Positions 2,393-14,063 of a stretch of DNA of 21,880 bases are shown in pieces. The stretch's first letter is position 1; the number at the start of each line of letters is the position of its first letter. Both the position numbers and the translations under genes were made by a program. Source of the DNA: a virus; IMG/VR virus record IMGVR_UViG_3300042868_004679, positions 1 through 21,880 of that record; one strand, given 5' to 3'. The notes beneath the pieces are model-generated. The model ran no database searches. It was not told the origin of the DNA and saw only the letters and a program-made list of their open reading frames with translations.

Positions 2393-4174
2393 TTAAAATT
2401 TGATGTCATCTAACAGGTTATTTTCATCTAAAAGGTCTGATTTTTGTGATTTTTCACTTAAAATCCTCTTTTTTGCCGAAATCCCATTAATATATTCTTG
2501 TGCTAATTTTTTACTTGATTCAATTGAACGAGTTTCTCTCTTACGTTCTTTTTCGTTTTCTTTGTTTCCCAATGGGTCTCTGCCATATGGATGTTTATCT
2601 TTACCATATGTATTACCTTCTCTTGGTCTACCACCTTTATTATCCACAATCTCCTGCTTCATTTTTTCAATCTCCTCCTCCACATTTTGTGGTTCGGGTT
2701 GATTAGCAGGGTCTTGTCCTTGCTGTTCTATTGAATTATATCTAAATCTATCTTTAAGGTCTAGTATCATTTTAGCTCTCTCCATATCCATTTCATCCTC
2801 ACTCATGCTAAATACATTGTGATATACCCAATCAGTAGATAACATATTCATTCCTTTGATATCAGTTGCTAATCTAACTTTCTCACTCCATAAGTTTACC
2901 TTCTCTTGCTCATATATTGTAGATGAGTTAGTTAAAGTAAGTTGGAAGTTTGTCATTTCAGAATCATCAATACCCTGTCCAGCTAAGTGAACGATTGCAA
3001 TCTTATATAATTCACTAACAATTGTTCTTTGAATTCTTTCGATAGTTCTAGCAAAACGAACATCTTCTGCAGCCAATGTAGCTTTACCATTAACGTTCTC
3101 ATCATATGATAAGTAAGCCTTTGGAACTTTTAATGCAGCAAATAGTTTAGCTTTTAGATAATCAATATCTTCAACCGCTGCATAGTCTAATCCAGCTAAG
3201 TTTTCAATTGATGTACCACTATCTCCACCTCTAACAGGTAAGAAGAAATCTTCAGTAAGATTCTGAATATTGTATTTTAAGTTGTAGTCACCACTATTTT
3301 TATCAACAAATGGAGTTTTCTTCATTTTATTGATAATCTTTTGCATATAGTTATCAACCTCTTGCGGGTTAATGTTACCAATATCAATTTTGAACACTCT
3401 TTTTTCAGGTGCTCTCATAATACGATGGATTAACATCGCATCTTCCATAAGCGATAATTGTTTCCAAACCCTACGGCCGTTTTCAATCATAGCCTTACCA
3501 TATGGAAGGAAGTTTGTATCTGAAAGTAATCGGAAGTGAGCCATTTCATAGTTCTCATATTCCTTTTTACCAAATCTATCTAATTCAACTTTGTATTTAA
3601 CATAGTTTTGATTCAATGGGTCAGTACCTTCCAATCTTTCCGTATTATATACAGAATATGGAGTTACATTAATAATACCCTTACCTTCAGCTATTTCCAA
3701 TGCTAAAAAGAAATCACCATACTTTACCAAATTTCTTACCCAAGGCCACAAATTAAATTCTATGTTTATTACATCATAGAATAAGTTATGTAGGATTGCA
3801 CTTACATTTTCGTTTGATGATTTGATTGCCAATACATCACCAAATTCATTTTTTGTTGTTGATTCATCAGCGTATATATCTAATGCAGATGCTATAATTG
3901 GGTCATTATCCATAGCATCATAATCTCTGAATAATTCTCTACGAACTTGGTGGTATGCCATTGATTGGGCACCCTGATTAGTTTCGTAGTAAGACCTTTG
4001 TAACTTTGTATATCTATCTCTAAGATTTACGAAGTTTGTATTCATTTGACGTTCTTCGGTATCTACTACTCTACGCTTACCATCTTTATCAACAGTTACT
4101 ATTGCGTTTGTTGAGAATAGTTTTTTCAGTCTACCAAAAAAACTCCTGTCATCTATTTCTTCTTGTTCTGCCAT
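2393..4174 (-). CDS. Portal vertex protein, T4 gp20 type
   Basis: This 593-aa protein forms the dodecameric ring at the unique head vertex through which DNA is packaged and the tail is joined. Family features visible by eye are NDPIIASALDIYADEST (about 90-106), VKYGDFFLALE (150-160), the MAHFRLLSDTNFLPYGKAM segment (211-229), and the gp20-type core from MRAPEKRVFKIDIGN (253-267) through NLTEDFFLPVRGGDSGT (305-321) to EDIDYLKAKLFAALKVPKAY (335-354). The C-terminal 110 residues are charged and Gln/Lys-rich, with a GRPREGNTYGKDKHPYGRD stretch and an acidic LLDENNLLDDIKF end, and are probably flexible. The length is near that of T4 gp20 (524 aa) with a longer tail. It starts 7 bases after the 145-aa gene and probably shares its transcript from the box at 4647-4654. 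No sheath or tube gene separates it from the terminase. Confidence 0.95.
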   Translation of the reverse strand: MAEQEEIDDRSFFGRLKKLFSTNAIVTVDKDGKRRVVDTEERQMNTNFVNLRDRYTKLQRSYYETNQGAQSMAYHQVRRELFRDYDAMDNDPIIASALDIYADESTTKNEFGDVLAIKSSNENVSAILHNLFYDVINIEFNLWPWVRNLVKYGDFFLALEIAEGKGIINVTPYSVYNTERLEGTDPLNQNYVKYKVELDRFGKKEYENYEMAHFRLLSDTNFLPYGKAMIENGRRVWKQLSLMEDAMLIHRIMRAPEKRVFKIDIGNINPQEVDNYMQKIINKMKKTPFVDKNSGDYNLKYNIQNLTEDFFLPVRGGDSGTSIENLAGLDYAAVEDIDYLKAKLFAALKVPKAYLSYDENVNGKATLAAEDVRFARTIERIQRTIVSELYKIAIVHLAGQGIDDSEMTNFQLTLTNSSTIYEQEKVNLWSEKVRLATDIKGMNMLSTDWVYHNVFSMSEDEMDMERAKMILDLKDRFRYNSIEQQGQDPANQPEPQNVEEEIEKMKQEIVDNKGGRPREGNTYGKDKHPYGRDPLGNKENEKERKRETRSIESSKKLAQEYINGISAKKRILSEKSQKSDLLDENNLLDDIKF

Positions 4175-4671: not shown

Positions 4672-6267
4672 CTACAACCATTGAGATAAATCTTCAAATC
4701 CATCACCAATTCTCATCTTCCAAGGGTTATCATCCATAGTGCTACCACCACCATAAATACCATTATAAGTATTTGATGTAATACCACCTACCGCACTTTT
4801 TGTTAAATCAATACCTTCTTGTCTTAATCTAAGCGCAGTATCCCTAACCCACATACCAATTGAAAATGCCATTACCAAGTCATCGTTGTAACCCTTCATA
4901 GCTTCAGCTCTACCATTCATATAAATAAACGTAAATAACTCATCTATCAAACGAGTAGAACGAACTATAACTGATTTCTCTCTAAAGTAATCAGTTAATT
5001 TAGATATAATCAAAGGTCTAGTTTTAGATGTAGTTGAAAATCCGGCAACCAATCCTCTATCCTCAGCTCTATATTTATTTGTCATTTGATTCTCTACATC
5101 GATATATTTTAAATCCTTACTCATATAGAATAAGTTTTTATATCCTCTATCAATTACTTGCTGAATTGTTGCCCATCCAATATTTGCATTCTCTATTACA
5201 AGTAAAGCATCATTATATTCCGTTGAAAGTGCTACTAAGAAGTTTCCAAAATCTTTTGTATCAACTTTGCCTTTATATTCAGCTACTTGAGTTGAATTAA
5301 CTACATCAATTACATGACACGTTGAATAATCGGCTCCATCGCCTCTAGCCACATCGGCTACTACCATATATGATTTTTGATAATCAGCATGTTCCCATTT
5401 CCAAAGATTTCCATCAAATCCACCTTTCTCAATTGGTTCCTGAATATATGTTTCTTTATAGAACATTAAAGTTTCCGGTTCAATTACAGTTTCACCAGAA
5501 GATACGAAGTCACAATCACATTCCTGTGCTGCTTTCTTTATACCTAATAATTCCTCTTGCTGGTCTCTCCATTTTTGGTCTCTCTCAGGATGTACTGTCC
5601 AATGTAATCTGATTGTGTTGAATGGATTTCTACTTTCCTCAGCTCCTAACCAAGTTTGGTGAAACCAATTACCGACACCATTAGGAGTAGATAATGCAAT
5701 ACAACTACCACCCGTAGATAGAGTTGATTGAGCTGCTACCCAAATCTCGTCGATATCATCAATGAAAGCGGCCTCATCAAATATAAGAAGTGATAAGGCT
5801 TCCGAACGTCCTGCATCAGGAGAACTAGCAATAGCCTTAATTTGAGAACCATTTGTTAAACGAAGGGAAAGCTTATTATCTTCCATAGACCCGTTTTTAA
5901 GCCAACTAGGAAGCAATTCATGCATTACTCTTACCTTTGTTACCAAGTTCTTTGCAACATCTTGCTTTGTTGCAATAACTAATACGTTAAAATCACCATT
6001 AAATATCATTTTCCAAAGAGCGTATCCAGCCGATAGGGTTGAGATGCCAGTTTGTCGTGATTTCAATACTATATTAAATCTATTACCTGCAAATTGAGTT
6101 AGTGTCTTTTCCTGAAATGGAAATAAGTGGAAAGGTATCTTACCTCTAACTGGATGTTGAATCATACAATACTTCTTCATAAAGTGAATCGGGTCTACCG
6201 CACACTTTTTGTATTCTTCTGCAATAATATCTTTTAGAGATTTCTTTTGTGTTATACCAGTACTCAT
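4672..6267 (-). CDS. Terminase large subunit (gp17-type packaging ATPase/nuclease)
   Basis: This 531-aa packaging motor cuts concatemeric DNA and pumps it through the portal. The N-terminal ATPase has a deviant Walker A, KSRQTGIST (69-77), Walker B LLIFDEAAF (160-168, catalytic Glu165) and coupling motif ALSTPNG (191-197). The C-terminal RNase H-like nuclease shows three acidic positions: Asp305 in VVADVARGDGADYS, Glu359 in LLVIENANIGW, and Asp462/Asp463 in YNDDLVMAF. The protein is shorter than T4 gp17 (610 aa) but all core motifs are present, so it looks intact. The ATG follows the stop of the preceding zinc-ribbon gene by one base (TAATATG), implying co-translation. It probably belongs to the transcript that starts at the box at 6972-6986. 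Confidence 0.96.
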   Translation of the reverse strand: MSTGITQKKSLKDIIAEEYKKCAVDPIHFMKKYCMIQHPVRGKIPFHLFPFQEKTLTQFAGNRFNIVLKSRQTGISTLSAGYALWKMIFNGDFNVLVIATKQDVAKNLVTKVRVMHELLPSWLKNGSMEDNKLSLRLTNGSQIKAIASSPDAGRSEALSLLIFDEAAFIDDIDEIWVAAQSTLSTGGSCIALSTPNGVGNWFHQTWLGAEESRNPFNTIRLHWTVHPERDQKWRDQQEELLGIKKAAQECDCDFVSSGETVIEPETLMFYKETYIQEPIEKGGFDGNLWKWEHADYQKSYMVVADVARGDGADYSTCHVIDVVNSTQVAEYKGKVDTKDFGNFLVALSTEYNDALLVIENANIGWATIQQVIDRGYKNLFYMSKDLKYIDVENQMTNKYRAEDRGLVAGFSTTSKTRPLIISKLTDYFREKSVIVRSTRLIDELFTFIYMNGRAEAMKGYNDDLVMAFSIGMWVRDTALRLRQEGIDLTKSAVGGITSNTYNGIYGGGSTMDDNPWKMRIGDGFEDLSQWL

Positions 6268-6268
6268 A

Positions 6269-6952
6269 TTAATCGTTAAGTGGTCTTACTAAATCGTAAT
6301 TTTTATCTTTTAATTTATCGTAAGCCTCATTTCTTAATTTAGTAGCTTGTTCAATCTCACCTTCAAACTTAACAATCTCTAAAAGTATTTCTGCTTTAAG
6401 TTCTTCTACATCTCTTTCCATACTCCAAGTTTCAATCTTACCATCTTCTTGAACTACTTCATAAGTTTGCTTTGCATCTCTATAAGCTTGTTTAAATTGG
6501 GCTACAACATCATTACCATGTGCAATCATATTAGAGTATATTTTATAATCTTCATATGCTTCCCACAATCCATCATATTTAATTTGAGCTTCTCTTAAAG
6601 TAAGGCAGTGTAAACAATATCCAGTTTTAGATATTAATTTTTTATCAACTCTACCTATTTTGATTGTTTTGCAATTTTCAGATTTACAAGTGTTTAACTT
6701 ATCTAAATAAGCTCTTGTTTCAGCCATTATATCACCCAGTTCTGATGTTTGTACTTTACCAGCTGCTAATTGCTCCCAAGATTTGCCATCATCATCAGTC
6801 CATTTTTCACCAACCTTACGTTTTATAATTTCTTTATCTGCTCCAGAAAATGAAATAAATGATTCCTTTTCGTATTCAGCACCATGCATTACCATATCTA
6901 CCAACTTCCTACGAGTTGGATGCATAAACTTTTTATTGAATTCCTTTGCCAT
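6269..6952 (-). CDS. Zinc-ribbon protein upstream of terminase (candidate small terminase or packaging accessory)
   Basis: This 227-aa protein is coupled by a one-base gap to the large terminase gene. Residues 45-62 contain RKVGEKWTDDDGKSWEQ. Four cysteines follow as C89-x4-C94 and C113-x2-C116, about 18 residues apart, which is the layout of a treble-clef or zinc ribbon. The C-terminal half (about 120-220) is charged and probably a long coiled coil. I recall similar VG-x-WTD-x-DG-x-WEQ plus CxxC proteins in T4-type phages, without an established role. Small terminase subunits are usually encoded just ahead of the large one and are helical DNA-binding oligomers, so TerS is a reasonable hypothesis from position. 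The zinc ribbon is not typical of TerS, so the call is uncertain. The gene follows a strong copy of the shared promoter box. Confidence 0.88.
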   Translation of the reverse strand: MAKEFNKKFMHPTRRKLVDMVMHGAEYEKESFISFSGADKEIIKRKVGEKWTDDDGKSWEQLAAGKVQTSELGDIMAETRAYLDKLNTCKSENCKTIKIGRVDKKLISKTGYCLHCLTLREAQIKYDGLWEAYEDYKIYSNMIAHGNDVVAQFKQAYRDAKQTYEVVQEDGKIETWSMERDVEELKAEILLEIVKFEGEIEQATKLRNEAYDKLKDKNYDLVRPLND

Positions 6953-7003: not shown

Positions 7004-9940
7004 TTATTTATCGAAGAAAATACCTAAAATTTGATTTAGGGGTGCGAATGCACCTGTTAATTTGTAAGTGTTACCACCATAGACAAATACAATACCCTCA
7101 TTTGGTACAATCTTTTCGAATCCACCAAGTGCATTTAAGCGAGATAACTCTAATTTCAATTTTTCAATCTTCTTAGGGTCACCACTTGCTTTTACTTGAG
7201 ATATTGTTGATTGTAAACGGGCCACCATTTGTCTTTTAGCACTATCAGGGTTTGCTGTAAGAACCGAATCCATAAAGGATAGTACATCCGCACCAACTCC
7301 TAAGAATATCTCCTCAAATCTCATTAGATTTTGCTTTCCTATCTTTTGTTGGTCTTGCTTATCAGTTGCATCGGCCCAAGCTCTTAATTTTTCATCAGTT
7401 ATTTCTGCTATACGGAAACTTTTATCGTTAAAAGCCCATCTTTTTACTAATCCTATCTTTTGTTGTGAATCTAATTTTTTTGCTTTCTTTTCTACAAAAT
7501 TAGTCCACCATGCTTGATGATAATCAGCAACACCATCAGAATCGTGCAATCCAAATTCAGATTGTAATTTAGAAATCATCCCTAAATACTTTCCTTGCAA
7601 TTTAGAAAGGTGTTCTGATTTAGGAAGTTTATTAATTGGCGGTCCCTGTATTGTGTATTTTGATTGAACGTGTGCATTTACTTGCTTAATCATCCCACCT
7701 AATATACTTGCAGCTTGTTGATTTTCACCAATAATTACACCATCTTTATCATATTCAAATGTACCATGAAATACCAATAGTGGTTGGTTATATGGAATTA
7801 CGTTTACGGATGTTGGATATATTACTTCCAAATTCATAAAACATGCACCATTTTTGAATATCTTTTTTCTTTGTGGTTCGGATAGGGCTCCAATTGCTTT
7901 TGATAAATCTTGCATAGCGAAGTTGTATGCATCAGTCAATCCACCTCTACCAGCAAACTTATCTGCCACCTGTCCTATTGTCATAGCACCCTCACCTTTG
8001 TTCTTTAGGTGTGATTTGTTACGAGCTGCAACTAATCTACCATTTACCCAACTAACTGCCAATGCCTGACCATCAGTCTTCTCTCTTGCTAATTCTAAAT
8101 CACCATTAAGTGCTCTTACTACTATTTGTTTTAAATCACCAAATGTAAGATTCATTTCAATATCAAACGGATGGTTCATATGTCCATAAGCCCCACCTTC
8201 CAATAGGATTGATTCATTAACACTTTCTTTTTTTGAAGATTCAAGTTGTTTTCTGATTTTATCTATTTCAGCTCTAACCTTCATTTGTGCCGGAGAGTTT
8301 GGCATCATCTTAAAAGCCTTATTATATAATACTACCAATTCCCTTTCTAAATCTTTCAATCCTTCGTTTGTTGGATTTTCTATATTAGCTAACTTATCAT
8401 AATAGTTTATATCTTCCCATAAATGGTCCATAGCGATTTCAGTTGCAATACGAACATCAGTTGTATGTTCCATTTCAACTTTAATACCTTTCATTAATTT
8501 AGGTTTGATATATTCTTTTGCAAATTGCGTTGGGTCATAATATCCGTTAGAATCATATTTCTTAGCCAAATCAATTATAGTTTTACCTTTTGCCAAGCCA
8601 CCAGGAATTTTATCTTCATCAATCTCCTCATACCCACTCATTGCTTTGTTGTTAAGTTTTTTACTATTCTTCTTAACATCTTTACTATCAGGTGCTCCAT
8701 TAATATATCCACCCGGCAAACTCAAACCTATACCAGCTCCACCACCAAGTCCCATCTCATCTAATATAGAATCAAAATCAGAAACTATTTCTTTGATATC
8801 TTCTTTTGAAATTATTGTATCTTTTTGATTATCAGGCAATTCCCAAAATCTTTTAGGTTTATTTATAGCTTTTTTAGGTTTTATTTCTTTCCAATCTTCA
8901 ACAGTATGTGGGTCATCAGCTGGATTTAATGTACTTTTTTCTACATTATTTATTTTGTAATATGATTTTCTAAATTGAGTTTCAGTATCTTTTGTTTTAC
9001 CAACTCCTCTCATATTATCCGCTTTGGGTTTATCTAATTGAGTATATCCACCCTGCTTATACCAATTTTCAGGCTTTTCTTTATTTAATATTCGTTTGTT
9101 TCTATCTGCAACAAATGAGGTATCCGGTTCAGCTGTTCCGCTGAATCCTGCGTTGGATGCTGCTTCTTTTAAATTTTCTTTTTTAGGAATTCTAAATGTT
9201 ACTGCTTTCTTACCATTGATTGTTGGCATTCCCCACTCATCTTCACCTATTGATTTAACAACTACTTTTTTATTTTTAAATTTACCCATTAACAAAGTAT
9301 CACCAACTTTTACGTTTAGTTTAATTTCTTCATTAATACATTCTTTTAATCCCTTTAATTTAAGAGTAATTAATTTGAATATTTGAGAATCAAATTTTGG
9401 ATATGCTTTTGTAAAGTTTTTCTTTCTTTCTTCCGAACTACCAGCACTTAACCAATAACGAACATCAGTACCACTTATAGGATTTGGTTGTGAAGGTGAA
9501 GCATATACATATCCTTTATCTAAATACCCCTGCTCTACTTTACCTTTATATGGAGTGAAATATTTACCACCTAATCGGTTTTGGTCCTTCTCACCAACTA
9601 CAACTACTAAACCAGTTGTATCCGAATCATACTTATTTAGTATTTCTTCAGGTGCATATGGATTTTTTACATTAACAATTTTAGATGATGGTATCCCAAA
9701 CATCTGCATCATTATTGCTTTCTTTTCCTTAAAATTAAATGGAGATTTCTTTGAATCGGTAACATTAGAAGTTCCGATATATACGCTATCCTTTCCGAAC
9801 TTGCGTACTAAATTTTCATAAGTTGCGTAATGGCCCTTATGAAATGGTTGAAAGCGGCCCGAATAGACAACAACTACTTTGTCCATTTGAGCCGCTTCTC
9901 CCAATATTGTTTCTATTAAAAAGTTTGATAATTCGTTCAT
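7004..9940 (-). CDS. Multidomain NMNAT-like nucleotidylyltransferase / DUF5661-like / ligase-type nucleotidyltransferase fusion
   Basis: This 978-aa protein has several distinct parts. Residues 20-195 form an HxGH nucleotidylyltransferase domain: GRFQPFHKGH (28-37), VGEKDQNR (115-122) and ISGTDVR (155-161), as in NMN adenylyltransferases and related enzymes. Residues 207-252 look like a small beta domain (VGDTLLMGKFKNKKVVVKSI). Residues 397-417 are Gly-rich (GLSLPGGYINGAP). Residues 436-518 match the DUF5661 pattern, IPGGLAKGKT, then GIKVEMEHTTD, then AMDHLWED. Residues 580-978 show covalent-nucleotidyltransferase motifs in order: I, EKTDG (Lys621 nucleophile), Ia, AARNKS (638-643), III-like, FMNLEVIYP (701-709), IV, EGIVF (948-952), V, YKLTG (959-963). 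DNA/RNA ligases and capping enzymes share these. The substrate is unknown; RNA or NAD metabolism are options. The N-terminus MNELSNFLIETILGEA resembles a T4 capsid-targeting peptide. No stop or frameshift interrupts it. Confidence 0.9.
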   Translation of the reverse strand: MNELSNFLIETILGEAAQMDKVVVVYSGRFQPFHKGHYATYENLVRKFGKDSVYIGTSNVTDSKKSPFNFKEKKAIMMQMFGIPSSKIVNVKNPYAPEEILNKYDSDTTGLVVVVGEKDQNRLGGKYFTPYKGKVEQGYLDKGYVYASPSQPNPISGTDVRYWLSAGSSEERKKNFTKAYPKFDSQIFKLITLKLKGLKECINEEIKLNVKVGDTLLMGKFKNKKVVVKSIGEDEWGMPTINGKKAVTFRIPKKENLKEAASNAGFSGTAEPDTSFVADRNKRILNKEKPENWYKQGGYTQLDKPKADNMRGVGKTKDTETQFRKSYYKINNVEKSTLNPADDPHTVEDWKEIKPKKAINKPKRFWELPDNQKDTIISKEDIKEIVSDFDSILDEMGLGGGAGIGLSLPGGYINGAPDSKDVKKNSKKLNNKAMSGYEEIDEDKIPGGLAKGKTIIDLAKKYDSNGYYDPTQFAKEYIKPKLMKGIKVEMEHTTDVRIATEIAMDHLWEDINYYDKLANIENPTNEGLKDLERELVVLYNKAFKMMPNSPAQMKVRAEIDKIRKQLESSKKESVNESILLEGGAYGHMNHPFDIEMNLTFGDLKQIVVRALNGDLELAREKTDGQALAVSWVNGRLVAARNKSHLKNKGEGAMTIGQVADKFAGRGGLTDAYNFAMQDLSKAIGALSEPQRKKIFKNGACFMNLEVIYPTSVNVIPYNQPLLVFHGTFEYDKDGVIIGENQQAASILGGMIKQVNAHVQSKYTIQGPPINKLPKSEHLSKLQGKYLGMISKLQSEFGLHDSDGVADYHQAWWTNFVEKKAKKLDSQQKIGLVKRWAFNDKSFRIAEITDEKLRAWADATDKQDQQKIGKQNLMRFEEIFLGVGADVLSFMDSVLTANPDSAKRQMVARLQSTISQVKASGDPKKIEKLKLELSRLNALGGFEKIVPNEGIVFVYGGNTYKLTGAFAPLNQILGIFFDK

Positions 9941-9971: not shown

Positions 9972-10355
9972 TTATTCTTTTACTACTTTATTACTAGCTG
10001 ATTGAGCTTGTTGTTCAGCCAATTGCTTTCTAGTTGGTGCACCTGGTTGATACTGAACCGTACCATCTTGTAAATTAAGTCTTCCAGCTGGATATTTATC
10101 ATCTAATACATCTAAAGTTTGCTTTAATTCAGCACTCGTATTTTTAAATTCAGCCTCCCCTTGCTCAAGTAAAGAATCCAATCTAACCAATTCATCTGCT
10201 ATTTCTTTTTTTCTAATATAAATTTGTCCAAACTCAAGTAATAATTGATTTGATTTATCATTTAATGAGTTTATTGTATCTAAAATAGATTCATCTACTT
10301 TAGCTATTTCAATCTCAATAGATTGCTTTTGTGGGATGTTATCTAATCCTGCCAT
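9972..10355 (-). CDS. Coiled-coil protein, longer paralogue of the 94-aa protein
   Basis: This 127-aa protein is mostly a charged coiled coil (about 20-85), followed by the motif KYPAGRLNLQDGTVQY (87-102) and a polar tail rich in Gln and Ala. Residues 24-104 align without gaps to residues 12-92 of the 94-aa protein at 13779-14063. By hand count about a quarter of positions are identical, including the shared YP-x-G-x-L-x-L-x2-G-x-V-x-Y signature. The two genes flank the glycosyltransferase pair and carry the same 15-mer upstream. The function is unknown. Small coiled-coil virion or chaperone proteins would fit, but nothing proves it. Confidence 0.85.
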   Translation of the reverse strand: MAGLDNIPQKQSIEIEIAKVDESILDTINSLNDKSNQLLLEFGQIYIRKKEIADELVRLDSLLEQGEAEFKNTSAELKQTLDVLDDKYPAGRLNLQDGTVQYQPGAPTRKQLAEQQAQSASNKVVKE

Positions 10356-10404: not shown

Positions 10405-11553
10405 TTATAAGAATTTTTCTAATTCTTTTATTACCATTTCCGATGTTATTGATTTAGTACACTCAAATTGTCGTTCCGTTCCTTTGTGGTCTGGGCACCA
10501 ACTCCAATCTCCAGCGTTTAAACGAATTCTATTAAAACATCCCTCACACTTTCCTTTAGGAGCTGCAACTCTATAACAGTCTTTCATTTCTGCCCAGTCA
10601 TACGAAAATCCACTAATTAAAACAGTAGGAACATCTAAAGACCAACTCAACCAACTCAAACCACTACCAATACCAATAAATGCTTTTGATTTTTTCATTT
10701 CAAGCATAACCAATTCAATAGGTCCTTTTGGATGATGTACGATTCCTTTTGGTAATTTATTTCCCATATAATCATCTCCCTCCTTTGATACTAATCTAAT
10801 TGTGTATCCTTTGTTATTCAACCAATCTACTACATCTTGCCAGCCAGTTGGATTATTCCAAAATTTAGATTGGGCAGTTCCAAACACACCAATACAAACT
10901 TGCTTTAAATTTGAATCAGGTTTTGTTTTTATATTTTTTAATTTTGGTTTTATTTCTTTATATTCCAATCCCAAAATATCAGAACACATTTTTTGCATTG
11001 TTTGAGTTTTTGGGTCAATTGGATTTTTAAATAAATTTATAGAACTATCATCATTATAAAATATACCAACAGAATACATTGCATATAAATTTTCAACAGC
11101 TGTACCAGGATTGACAAATTCAATTTCAGGATATTGACTCATAAACATATCATTCATAAATGTAGATACAATTAATTTACAATTATGCTTTTTTCTAAAT
11201 TCATCCATATATGGAAACCATGCTAAAGAATCGCCCAAAGCTTTTGAATCTAATGGAATATAAACTCTTTTATCTTTTGCATTATAAACATATTCATACC
11301 ATATTTTATCATTTTGATAAATAACAATTTTCCATTCTATAAAATATTCTATACTACATTTACACCAACAATTATTTTTTATATTTGTAGAGTAATGTAC
11401 CTTTCCAGTTTTATTATCTATAAATTTAACTGTATATTCAGAATCTATGTTTCCTTTAATTTCAACATAAGGTCCTTTAACAAAGTGAATTATCACTTTA
11501 TTTTTTACCTCAACTATATTATTTTTATTTTTCTTTAAATTATCGTATATCAT
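10405..11553 (-). CDS. TibC/AAH-type autotransporter O-heptosyltransferase (GT9-like) with Cys4 metal site
   Basis: I place the start at the ATG at 11553 (382 aa). A longer reading from 11562 would need a TTG, whereas this ATG overlaps the previous stop by one base (TAATG). Residues 20-95 form a beta-rich domain (VKGPYVEIKG, then VKFIDNKTGKVHYST). Next come YIPLDSKALGDSLAWFPY (98-115, Asp108 at the catalytic position of this family) and a GT-B C-terminal half with GIGSGLSWLSW (294-304). Near the end is C336-x2-C339-x13-C353-x11-C365 within KCEGCF, DWSWCPDHKG and QFECTKSIT. These match bacterial autotransporter heptosyltransferases such as TibC, which bind iron through four cysteines, form dodecamers and add heptose to Ser of beta-helical proteins. 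Acceptor and donor here are unknown. GC is very low in the N-terminal half (22 of 120 bases at 11281-11400). Confidence 0.88.
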   Translation of the reverse strand: MIYDNLKKNKNNIVEVKNKVIIHFVKGPYVEIKGNIDSEYTVKFIDNKTGKVHYSTNIKNNCWCKCSIEYFIEWKIVIYQNDKIWYEYVYNAKDKRVYIPLDSKALGDSLAWFPYMDEFRKKHNCKLIVSTFMNDMFMSQYPEIEFVNPGTAVENLYAMYSVGIFYNDDSSINLFKNPIDPKTQTMQKMCSDILGLEYKEIKPKLKNIKTKPDSNLKQVCIGVFGTAQSKFWNNPTGWQDVVDWLNNKGYTIRLVSKEGDDYMGNKLPKGIVHHPKGPIELVMLEMKKSKAFIGIGSGLSWLSWSLDVPTVLISGFSYDWAEMKDCYRVAAPKGKCEGCFNRIRLNAGDWSWCPDHKGTERQFECTKSITSEMVIKELEKFL

Positions 11554-13724
11554 TAACTCCAAGTTTTAATTGTTAAATCTAATAAAGAAAATCCCTCCGC
11601 TTGCTTACTATACACTTTGTTTGTTGTATATCTAGGTCTTGGGTGATTTATAAATACATGATTATACCAAAGGTCACCAACATCCCAACCACAATCTTTA
11701 AGTCTATCTTCCCACCACTGCTTTTCTCTATTTGGAATTAAATAACAATGTGCAAGGTCTTGATTTGCTGCTGTCTTTGAAAACAACTCATCTATCTTTT
11801 CTTTTTCTCTTGATGGGTTATCTGCAAATGATATGAATGGTACATTATCTCTCTCTGATAAGAAACATGCTCTATGTACTATTTCAACAAATTCTTCCAA
11901 ACCAGTATAGATAAATGCATCTGCTTCAAATACTAAAGTGTAATCAAAGTTTTCAGTATCCATTGTTTCCAATGCCATTCTATGTGCTAAATAACATCCA
12001 TAATGTCTACCAGTCATCCAACCCAAACCAGCACCAGGGTATAACTCACCCGGCTTATTATCTTTACTTATATGCTCAGGCCTTCTACAATTTTCAGCTG
12101 GTGCGAATCCTTCGTATGGTTCATTTACAATTGGTTCGTAATACATACCATATTTTTCTAATTGTTTAATAGATTGAATAGATACCCTTTCTCTCATATC
12201 ATTCGGCCTAGTCAACATATGTTTTATTTGAATACGAGGTTTCTTACGAATAAATGAACGAAATCCTTTATCAAACTGCTCATAGAAAAATTCATTTGCA
12301 GCTTGTGTTACTCCGTGAAATACTGTATAATCATCTCCACTAATAATTCCACCTGGCTTTACTTTGTTGTACCAAACTTTTACATCTTCCATTAAAGAAT
12401 CGTAAGAATGCCCAGCATCTAACATAATAAAATCTATACTACCATTTTGAAATTGATTAGCTGCATTATGTGAAGTATCTTTAATTGTATCAAATGTACC
12501 ATAGTTATCTGATAGAACTGTATTATCTATGAATTCATAAAATATATCTCCATTAAATGCTCCAACAATATTTTGGTGTAATGCCTCATCATCAGTTCCT
12601 TTCCACGTATCTACGCTTGTAAATTTAATATCCTTGCCAGACTGTTTAATTTTTGTTGCTAAATGATTTGTTGATTTACCAAACCATGCTCCTACTTCTA
12701 CAAATATCTCACCACCTTTAGCGGATTCAACCATTTCATTATATAAATCAGTATATGCAAACCAACCCGGTATTTCATTAAATTCAGGTTCTAATGTTTC
12801 TAATATAACTCTCTTAGTTAATTTCAAATCATCATTAATATAAGTTACTAATGAATTATTATCGTATGTATCTAAGTAAGTGTGTAACTTTCTAAATATA
12901 GAAGGTAATTTATATGATAGAGCTTCTTTAACTGATAATGGATTTAATTCTATTTTAGATGAAAAATAAAACATATCACATGCAGCATAAAATGTATCTA
13001 CATCGGTACGCTCTCCCCAGACTACACAATTTTCAGGTTTATAATCCATTAAAGGTCTCCAATAATCTTCAAAGTTTCCGGCCTGATTTCCTACGAAGTG
13101 AAATTTAATTTTATATTTTTCTAATTGTCTTGCTATTGCAAATATTTCTCCTTGATTTTTACCAGGTGCAAATAAACCAACATTAAGTACGTGCTTCCAA
13201 TTTGGGTCTAATCCTAATTCTTTTTGAGCAGCTTCGTTATCAAAGATATAATCTTCAATTGGATACTCCCATAAGTCGGTTTCAACTTCAGTTTCAATGA
13301 ATCTTTTTCTACTCCATTCGGATACTAAAACATATCTATCCGGATGATAAACTATTTCGGATGGATTTGTTAGTGAACCATGTGTAGATGCTACAATAAA
13401 ATAATTTCTATCTTTTGTAAAAATCTGGTCTAATATAAATGGTGCTAAATCAAATTGAGGTATTTCCTGAAAATGTATGATATCAGGGTTAAACTGATTT
13501 ATTACATTTAGTATTTCAGATTTATCATCTCCTAACGTATGAACCTCTACTAAAGATTTTATTCTATTTTTTTGAACTACAAATGCAATTCCACCACTAT
13601 TGTTTATTTCAACAACTTGAATATCAAAATCTTTAATAAAATGTTTTACCTGTTTATATAGGTATTGTGGTTGCCCTCCCGTAGATAAGTGGGGAGCAAT
13701 ATAAAGTAACTTCTTTTTAGACAT
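11553..13724 (-). CDS. Three-domain glycosyltransferase (GT4) / methyltransferase / GT25-like glycosyltransferase
   Basis: This 723-aa protein has three parts. Residues 1-310 are a GT-B fold glycosyltransferase of GT4 type: LLYIAPHLSTGGQPQYLY (6-23), LNVGLFAPGKNQGE (180-193) and the donor-binding SSKIELNPLSVKEAL (255-269), in place of the common E-G-F-G-x4-E-A. Residues 320-480 are a class I SAM methyltransferase-like domain: IFVEVGAWFGKST (340-352, motif I), SVDTWKG (370-376), DFIMLDAGHSYDS (431-443) and VKPGGIISGDDY (455-466). Residues 500-723 resemble GT25 LPS glycosyltransferases, with GRHYGCYLAHRMALE (572-586) and DYTLVFEADAFI (594-605), where EAD replaces the usual EDD. It probably makes or modifies a glycan with the heptosyltransferase translated right behind it. 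It is the only gene here that follows a Bacteroidota-type promoter. The acceptor is not known. Confidence 0.88.
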   Translation of the reverse strand: MSKKKLLYIAPHLSTGGQPQYLYKQVKHFIKDFDIQVVEINNSGGIAFVVQKNRIKSLVEVHTLGDDKSEILNVINQFNPDIIHFQEIPQFDLAPFILDQIFTKDRNYFIVASTHGSLTNPSEIVYHPDRYVLVSEWSRKRFIETEVETDLWEYPIEDYIFDNEAAQKELGLDPNWKHVLNVGLFAPGKNQGEIFAIARQLEKYKIKFHFVGNQAGNFEDYWRPLMDYKPENCVVWGERTDVDTFYAACDMFYFSSKIELNPLSVKEALSYKLPSIFRKLHTYLDTYDNNSLVTYINDDLKLTKRVILETLEPEFNEIPGWFAYTDLYNEMVESAKGGEIFVEVGAWFGKSTNHLATKIKQSGKDIKFTSVDTWKGTDDEALHQNIVGAFNGDIFYEFIDNTVLSDNYGTFDTIKDTSHNAANQFQNGSIDFIMLDAGHSYDSLMEDVKVWYNKVKPGGIISGDDYTVFHGVTQAANEFFYEQFDKGFRSFIRKKPRIQIKHMLTRPNDMRERVSIQSIKQLEKYGMYYEPIVNEPYEGFAPAENCRRPEHISKDNKPGELYPGAGLGWMTGRHYGCYLAHRMALETMDTENFDYTLVFEADAFIYTGLEEFVEIVHRACFLSERDNVPFISFADNPSREKEKIDELFSKTAANQDLAHCYLIPNREKQWWEDRLKDCGWDVGDLWYNHVFINHPRPRYTTNKVYSKQAEGFSLLDLTIKTWS

Positions 13725-13778: not shown

Positions 13779-14063
13779 TTATTCTGCAGATTCGTATATT
13801 ACTATACCTTCATTTAAATCAAGTTCGCCCATAGGATATTGCTTCTCCAAATCTCTAATTGTGGTTGTGAATTTACTATCATTTAGTTCAAACTCCATTT
13901 CCATAGATTTTTGTTCTTCCATAAGCTTGGTAATCTCAGTTTTAAAATTTCTTAATTTTAAATGAGTTTGACCAATACCAATAACTAATTCGTTTGCTTT
14001 AGTTTGCATACCTCTTAGGTCATCTATTAACTCTTGTGATAATTTTTCTGTTTTTTGTGCCAT
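13779..14063 (-). CDS. Small coiled-coil protein, paralogue of the 127-aa protein
   Basis: This 94-aa protein is helical and charged through about residue 74, then ends with QYPMGELDLNEGIVIY (75-90). It aligns without gaps to the 127-aa protein at 9972-10355 (see that entry) but lacks its N-terminal dozen residues and the polar C-terminal tail. It is preceded by the 15-mer promoter candidate and followed by the glycosyltransferase pair under a separate host-type promoter. The function is unknown. A membrane segment or catalytic motif is not apparent. Confidence 0.85.
   Translation of the reverse strand: MAQKTEKLSQELIDDLRGMQTKANELVIGIGQTHLKLRNFKTEITKLMEEQKSMEMEFELNDSKFTTTIRDLEKQYPMGELDLNEGIVIYESAE

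Follow-up and report, generated by a model that had tools for sequence, protein, structure and literature searches.

Why should a phage place an HxGH-type adenylyltransferase and an RNA-ligase-like enzyme in one polypeptide chain? The question is raised by an open reading frame (ORF) of 978 amino acids (aa) on the minus strand of IMG/VR virus record IMGVR_UViG_3300042868_004679 (7004..9940; start at 9940, end at 7004), all 21,880 bases of which were analysed here and are referred to as the window. A first-pass annotation of this DNA had pointed out the motifs HKGH and ISGTDVR in the N-terminal part of the protein and a K621 to K960 series in its C-terminal part; we find all of them in place, and the strand, which that annotation left unstated, is minus for the ORF, for the features described below and for the genes around it. 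We propose that the ORF encodes a precursor polyprotein, packaged in the head and cut by a protease, whose two enzymes both transfer AMP and would most probably serve RNA end repair early in infection, a reading to which we assign a probability of about 0.5.

The N-terminal domain has a predicted NMNAT/PPAT-type fold

Residues 21–195 (9356..9880) form a predicted HxGH adenylyltransferase fold of the nicotinamide mononucleotide (NMN) adenylyltransferase (NMNAT) or PPAT type. Pfam recognises CTP_transf_like (PF01467) at residues 25–161 (7.4e-9, above cut-off), and in PHROGs the N-terminus matches cytidyltransferase families. The sequence GRFQPFHKGH occupies residues 28–37, with HKGH at residues 34–37 (9830..9841), and ISGTDVR lies at residues 155–161 (9458..9478), so that the protein carries both HxGH and ISxTxxR, the motifs by which the NMN adenylyltransferase fold is recognised. 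In VIA, the AlphaFold2 model of this domain (predicted local distance difference test, pLDDT, 88.8) aligns best with NadM NMN adenylyltransferase (Z 12.8, 166 residues aligned, 3.1 Å), which is also a top sequence match, and Foldseek ranks nicotinic acid mononucleotide and NMN adenylyltransferases first. The match to an NMNAT or a cytidylyltransferase that had been expected for this domain was obtained, and prediction together with structure comparison supports a NAD-synthase-like adenylyltransferase fold. PPAT is tied with NadM in the structure comparison (Z 12.4). Among 100 distinct relatives with a readable motif, HxGH is present in 74 and replaced by GxHH in 18, TxGH in 6 and TGAH in 2, a tally that excludes 26 HxGH-domain matches not fitting the motif expression. 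Here and below, counts of relatives are among the matches listed in our scans and are lower bounds, not totals.

The C-terminal domain resembles RNA ligases

None of the libraries searched names this protein family, to which the present analysis assigns a function class, and residues 565–978 gave no match above cut-off in Pfam, PHROGs or NCBIfam. A profile of the C-terminal family had only weak matches among PDB sequences, led by ribosomal protein eS6; we took this match, and one to PgdA_N below cut-off, as chance. The AlphaFold2 model of the C-terminal construct reached a pLDDT of 90.7 and a predicted template modelling score of 0.87, with pLDDT below 50 confined to construct residues 1–18 (residues 565–582 of the window protein). 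It describes residues 582–978 (7007..8197) as a nucleotidyltransferase fold of the RNA ligase kind, in which motifs III and IV are separated by some 200 inserted residues, mostly helical. VIA-align places Naegleria RNA ligase closest to the model (Z 9.5, 196 residues aligned, 4.0 Å), followed by T4 Rnl1 and TbREL1 (both 9.0) and by fungal tRNA ligase and Rnl2 (both 8.7); ranks 1–28 are all RNA ligases, consistent with the ligase fold that the first-pass annotation expected for the last 400 or so residues, and such DNA ligases as appear in the 50 rows listed score 5.8–7.4. The aligned ranges with solved ligases extend from before motif I to beyond motif V. In Foldseek searches of the PDB the first 14 rows are RNA ligases, bar two rows of one 'putative DNA ligase' entry, and in BFVD the model matches four phage proteins of 714–944 aa at E 4.7e-21 or better, with annotated RNA ligases lower down.

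The motifs of this domain are in ligase order. Motif I, EKTDG (8069..8083), contains the predicted nucleophile Lys621; a motif Ia-like ARNK follows at residues 639–642 (8015..8026, with Arg640), then a motif III-like NLEVIY (7817..7834, Glu705), motif IV EGIVF (7085..7099, Glu948) and a motif V-like YKLTG (7052..7066, Lys960). In an alignment of 72 C-terminal domains, 24–88% identical to that of the window, E620, K621, D623, G624, R640, E705, E948, G949, V951, K960, T962 and G963 are invariant (72/72), and because the same residues recur in every domain the motif series is more than chance. The domain therefore has KxDG, the ordered motifs Ia, III and IV and the nucleotidyltransferase fold that mark the ligase superfamily. 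Prediction and structure comparison support an RNA-ligase-like fold for residues 582–978, with lysyl-AMP formation as its predicted activity.

The two enzymes are paired in relatives

By tblastn, the C-terminal family has three phage records at 35–36.5% identity, of which one is an isolate, Microcystis phage Mel-JY01, and the other two are huge phages known from uncultured material; scans of viral contigs added many further members, and a genome collection added nine loci in metagenome-derived assemblies. The layout, for which the first-pass annotation knew of no characterised example, is uncharacterised as far as our searches go, yet it is not unique, being shared by many phage contigs and deposited relatives. 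The pairing of the HxGH and ligase-like enzymes is real: among 104 distinct ligase-like domains whose ORF has an intact 5' end, an HxGH-type domain is part of the same chain in 93 and is encoded by a neighbouring gene in 7 (100/104). Of the four ORFs lacking a partner, two begin only some 100 bases inside their contig. This count excludes 37 truncated and 59 identical ligase-like domains as well as 82 further ORFs cut at their 5' end (31 with and 51 without partner); counting in the 31 gives 131/135. One of our locus sets was found partly through HxGH-side patterns and two others by ligase-side patterns only, and in loci found by a ligase-side pattern alone the pairing is 45/45. Domain order varies, the HxGH domain coming first in 114 and the ligase-like domain in 10 of 124 fusions, which include 5'-cut ORFs that show the partner and 18 cases assigned by motif only. 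The relative in the 484-kb phage LR756508.1 has an extra ParB-like region ahead of its HxGH domain (PF02195 at 4.4e-4, below cut-off, and ParB-like families in PHROGs). In the partial texts of the open-licence literature we found no description of an HxGH/RNA-ligase pair or of a cut two-enzyme precursor, nor any open-licence paper for DUF5661 and 'cytitidyltransferase'.

Candidate prohead-protease sites lie at the joints

The motif [LI]xE[AGS], a T4-type prohead-protease consensus, occurs in the 978-aa protein only after residues 15, 259 and 581, all outside both folded domains. The first, ILGE↓A (the arrow marks the candidate cut), ends a capsid-targeting-like N-terminus of residues 1–16 (9893..9940); the second is LKE↓A (9161..9172); the third, LLE↓G (8195..8206), lies where the ordered ligase-like domain starts, the model being disordered up to residue 582. 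Between the second and third sites, the variable middle region contains DUF5661 at residues 483–522 (8375..8494; Pfam 5.3e-8, above cut-off), in agreement with the DUF5661-like segment reported between the enzymes. Packaged middle domains were also sought in six long relatives, whose linkers gave no Pfam match above cut-off.

We examined site placement in 31 non-redundant relatives drawn from 138 proteins, the window protein being excluded. Linkers contain 78 sites against 26.7 (standard deviation, SD, 5.4) after shuffling, about threefold more, while the HxGH domain has 2 against 6.6 (SD 2.5) and the ligase-like domain 4 against 22.5 (SD 4.5). In 28 of the 31, a site coincides exactly with the ligase border (135/138 before redundancy removal), and reversed or substituted control motifs show no linker excess. 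Targeting-like N-termini were found in 13 of 54 family proteins versus 28 of 554 control ORFs, and in 13 of 37 cyanophage-type HxGH proteins versus 11 of 370 controls, related sequences being treated as independent in both comparisons. A T4-type prohead protease (Peptidase_S77) is encoded in 18 of 19 records of relatives, the exception being a 48-kb fragment. In four loci with separate ligase-like genes (L160, L174, L200 and L212), several other ORFs nearby also begin with capsid-targeting-like sequences, which suggests a cluster of packaged proteins; by architecture, a 462-kb phage record (L083) belongs to the same group.

Published work on virions is compatible with packaging. T4 internal proteins are packaged via a targeting sequence and trimmed by gp21, and IPI is injected with the DNA (PMC3012670, PMC9958956). 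NMNAT-like/cytidylyltransferase proteins were detected in the virion proteomes of the cyanophages S-SCSM1 (PMC9602691), S-SZBM1 (PMC9146016) and S-CREM2, whose authors caution about possible carry-over (PMC10665884). We considered S-CREM2 gp160 as a ligase-like partner and rejected it, its translation having none of the motifs; S-CREM2 was not searched further for one.

Counterparts in cyanophages

A similar pair occurs in T4-like cyanophages. Synechococcus phage S-PM2 encodes a 591-aa protein in which the motifs KWDG and EGFV precede an HxGH-type domain, and P-HM1 and Syn33 have the same two enzymes as adjacent genes, T4-GC71 and T4-GC190. The S-PM2 fusion is matched by 522 phage records, among which 459 bear the name Synechococcus, Cyanophage or Prochlorococcus; in 201 of the 522, a match in one place spans 80% or more of the protein. 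In BFVD, the window's ligase-like model is linked to the S-PM2 protein at E 1.4e-6, but with a TMq of only 0.40 and a root-mean-square deviation of 10.6. Compared by eye, the window family and GC71 share the motif order HxxH, KxDG, basic residue, E/D, NxIxY, EGxV, K. A sequence-profile link to GC71 was dropped after hhalign gave no significant match (P 0.091, and 0.048 with a deeper profile), so the proposed relationship relies on structure and motif order; a search of S-PM2 with A2 gave no match.

HxGH domains keep further company in marine phages. Near GC71-type genes on marine contigs, four of five proteins tested have a Pol-beta-type nucleotidyltransferase fused to an HxGH domain; RlaP, of Pol-beta type, is described as working alongside phage RNA ligases (PMC7824862). 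A 998-aa chain (L362:1840-4833) combines PAP2, Pol-beta nucleotidyltransferase and HxGH domains, and a 1047-aa marine phage protein (L360:5408-8548) has an HxGH domain just below cut-off together with RimK-like ATP-grasp and Zn_protease domains.

Genomic context

Directly downstream of the ORF lies a gene of unassigned function (6269..6952), followed by those for the terminase large subunit (4672..6267) and a T4-like portal protein (2393..4174); homologues are found downstream in 43, 70 and 57, respectively, of 79 loci checked. Together with terminase and portal, a 2351-aa protein that we take to be a fibre surrounds the ORF, and from these three genes we infer a T4-like phage. The downstream terminase (70/79 loci) prompted us to consider a role in packaging proper, which we rejected, as the pair sits among replication genes in S-PM2, P-HM1 and Syn33.

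Elsewhere in the window, a 723-aa protein (11553-13724, minus strand) combines glycosyltransferase group 1 and Methyltransf_24 with a weak, sub-cut-off glycosyltransferase family 25 match, and adjoins a glycosyltransferase-9-like protein (10405-11562, below cut-off); the two, which lie upstream of the head genes, may form a phage pair for glycan modification. They are flanked by small minus-strand proteins (9972-10355 and 13779-14063), which both match the same ORFs in two further loci (L172 and L261), suggesting a duplicated small protein.

Proposed mechanism and alternatives

From the two predicted folds, the invariant ligase motifs, the pairing, the placement of the sites and the prohead-protease gene in relatives, we infer packaging, cutting, injection, catalysis and an RNA substrate in the following way. 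The precursor would be made together with the head and packaging genes, and its short N-terminal sequence would direct it into the forming head, where a T4-type prohead protease would cut the (L/I)xE↓(A/G/S) joints and so release the HxGH adenylyltransferase and the RNA-ligase-fold enzyme, along with middle pieces. The freed enzymes would remain in the capsid and enter the host along with the DNA. Lys621 would then react with ATP (or NAD+), giving lysyl-AMP, from which the AMP would be transferred to a 5'-phosphate, most probably on damaged RNA, for rejoining or modification. The HxGH enzyme would take part in the same adenylyl economy by transferring AMP from ATP to an acceptor phosphate. The fusion noted in the first-pass annotation stands in so far as there is one chain; since the joints carry prohead-protease-type sites, the two enzymes may not act as a single fused enzyme.

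Cleavage-type sites at the joint also argue against channelling, and so against a NAD cycle, in which the HxGH enzyme would make NAD+ from NMN and ATP and the ligase-like domain would use NAD+ to form lysyl-AMP and return NMN, the fused pair recycling NMN and being effectively ATP-driven. Such a cycle would suit NadM as a top match by both sequence and structure, and a pairing that almost all relatives examined show, whichever domain comes first. However, PPAT is structurally tied with NadM, HxGH is altered in 26 of 100 relatives, Pfam recognises no NMN-binding ligase Ia domain, and NadV was found in just one of 17 records of relatives, some of these records being fragments and the window itself being too short to judge. 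We regard the cycle as improbable, and the findings on PPAT, HxGH and NadV likewise weaken the NAD supply that had been proposed for this locus. The scarcity of NadV also counts against a counter-defence kit with no shared chemistry, in which one enzyme would restore NAD+ after host NADase attack and the other mend RNA cut by nucleases of the host, both being joined for packaging only. The polyprotein features fit this view, as do the NMNAT-like proteins reported from virions and the domain-rich injected phage proteins already known (PMC5512222). Against it, the cyanophages examined also have the enzymes adjacent or fused outside the head cluster, which suggests a joint task, and we find this explanation unlikely, if somewhat less so than a NAD cycle.

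The C-terminal domain might instead not be a ligase at all: with neither an OB nor a C-terminal RNA-binding domain after motif V, it could act as a covalent nucleotidyltransferase in RNA capping, or modify a protein or a small molecule by adenylylation. The chain stops 15 residues past YKLTG, and the mostly helical insertion sits inside the domain, both as such an enzyme might have it. T4 Rnl1 and editing-ligase folds are nevertheless among the closest, RNA ligases take the first 28 VIA ranks, and the first vaccinia capping enzyme row in Foldseek appears at rank 43 or 44, so we hold a non-ligase to be improbable too.

Several points weigh against RNA end repair by a packaged, cut polyprotein. 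The consensus for cleavage and targeting, including the likeness of the N-terminus to T4 internal proteins, is borrowed from T4, and no prohead-protease gene was seen in the 21,880 bases of the window. In the ligase-like domain the control motifs, reversed or substituted, exceed expectation, so that the number of sites in this domain does not follow from composition alone. A targeting-like N-terminus is present in only 3 of 22 cyanophage ligase-like (GC71) proteins. RNA ligase superfamily motif V carries two lysines, while here it has one (K960) with no domain after it; we therefore use the label 'RNA-ligase-like' and do not count the domain as a superfamily member. In Foldseek, no solved structure matches at E 0.001, the best being no better than 8e-3. 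Of 17 records, 4 have RNA_ligase family genes at other places (3 of the 4 above the family cut-off), which would make simple tRNA repair redundant in these phages. The published virion detections cited above cover cyanophage NMNAT-like proteins only, and the accessible part of the S-SZBM1 paper does not name the ligase-like neighbour SSZBM1_141 among virion proteins (PMC9146016). Three of the four records with an RNA_ligase gene also have an AAA_33 gene, which may encode a polynucleotide kinase, at a distance of no more than about 3 kb. In these four phages, ordinary tRNA repair may fall to other enzymes, and the ligase-like enzyme may have a different RNA task.

The enzyme pair found in many aquatic phages could be a means of early infection that they have in common and that has escaped study. 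A bolder form of the proposal, in which a capsid-delivered, prohead-protease-cut polyprotein supplies an undescribed two-enzyme AMP-transfer pathway that repairs or marks RNA at the first moment of infection, common to T4-like cyanophages, freshwater phages and huge phages, seems to us doubtful as a whole. The proposed reading predicts that phage heads contain nucleotide and RNA enzymes ready for use, and the prediction is precise, naming three cut sites and one catalytic lysine.

Comparison with known systems

Like polyvalent proteins (Iyer et al. 2017, PMC5512222), which are described as big phage proteins of many domains, presumed to be packaged and injected and in part processed by peptidase domains of their own, the window protein is large and multidomain; unlike them, it has no MPTase or ART domain recognised by Pfam, and the accessible part of the paper mentions RNA ligases only with 2H domains and names no HIGH nucleotidyltransferase. 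With T4 internal proteins and Alt it would share an N-terminal targeting sequence and the involvement of a prohead protease; those proteins are described as losing small N-terminal peptides, whereas here several enzymes would be freed from one chain.

The HxGH domain resembles NadM-type NMN adenylyltransferase and PPAT in fold, GRFQPxHxGH and ISxTxxR, but has no recognised Nudix domain, and its family differs in the altered HxGH motifs and the rarity of NadV noted above. The C-terminal domain has the fold, the ordered motifs I, Ia, III and IV and one motif V lysine in common with the Naegleria, T4 (Rnl1 and Rnl2), TbREL1 and fungal tRNA ligases, at 8–15% identity over the aligned part; its own are the large helical insertion between motifs III and IV, the absence of anything after motif V, a conserved HxxHPxD before motif I and the HxGH partner. 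A parallel in layout is cyanophage T4-GC71/T4-GC190 (phrog_455, phrog_3041/395), which has no significant match in sequence profile and, in the genomes examined, lies among replication genes, but likewise sets a KxDG/EGxV protein beside, or fused with, an HxGH-type protein and includes the structural match in S-PM2. The 201 of 522 records that match the S-PM2 fusion over most of its length suggest that the cyanophage genes annotated 'hypothetical' and 'cytidyltransferase' are one functional pair.

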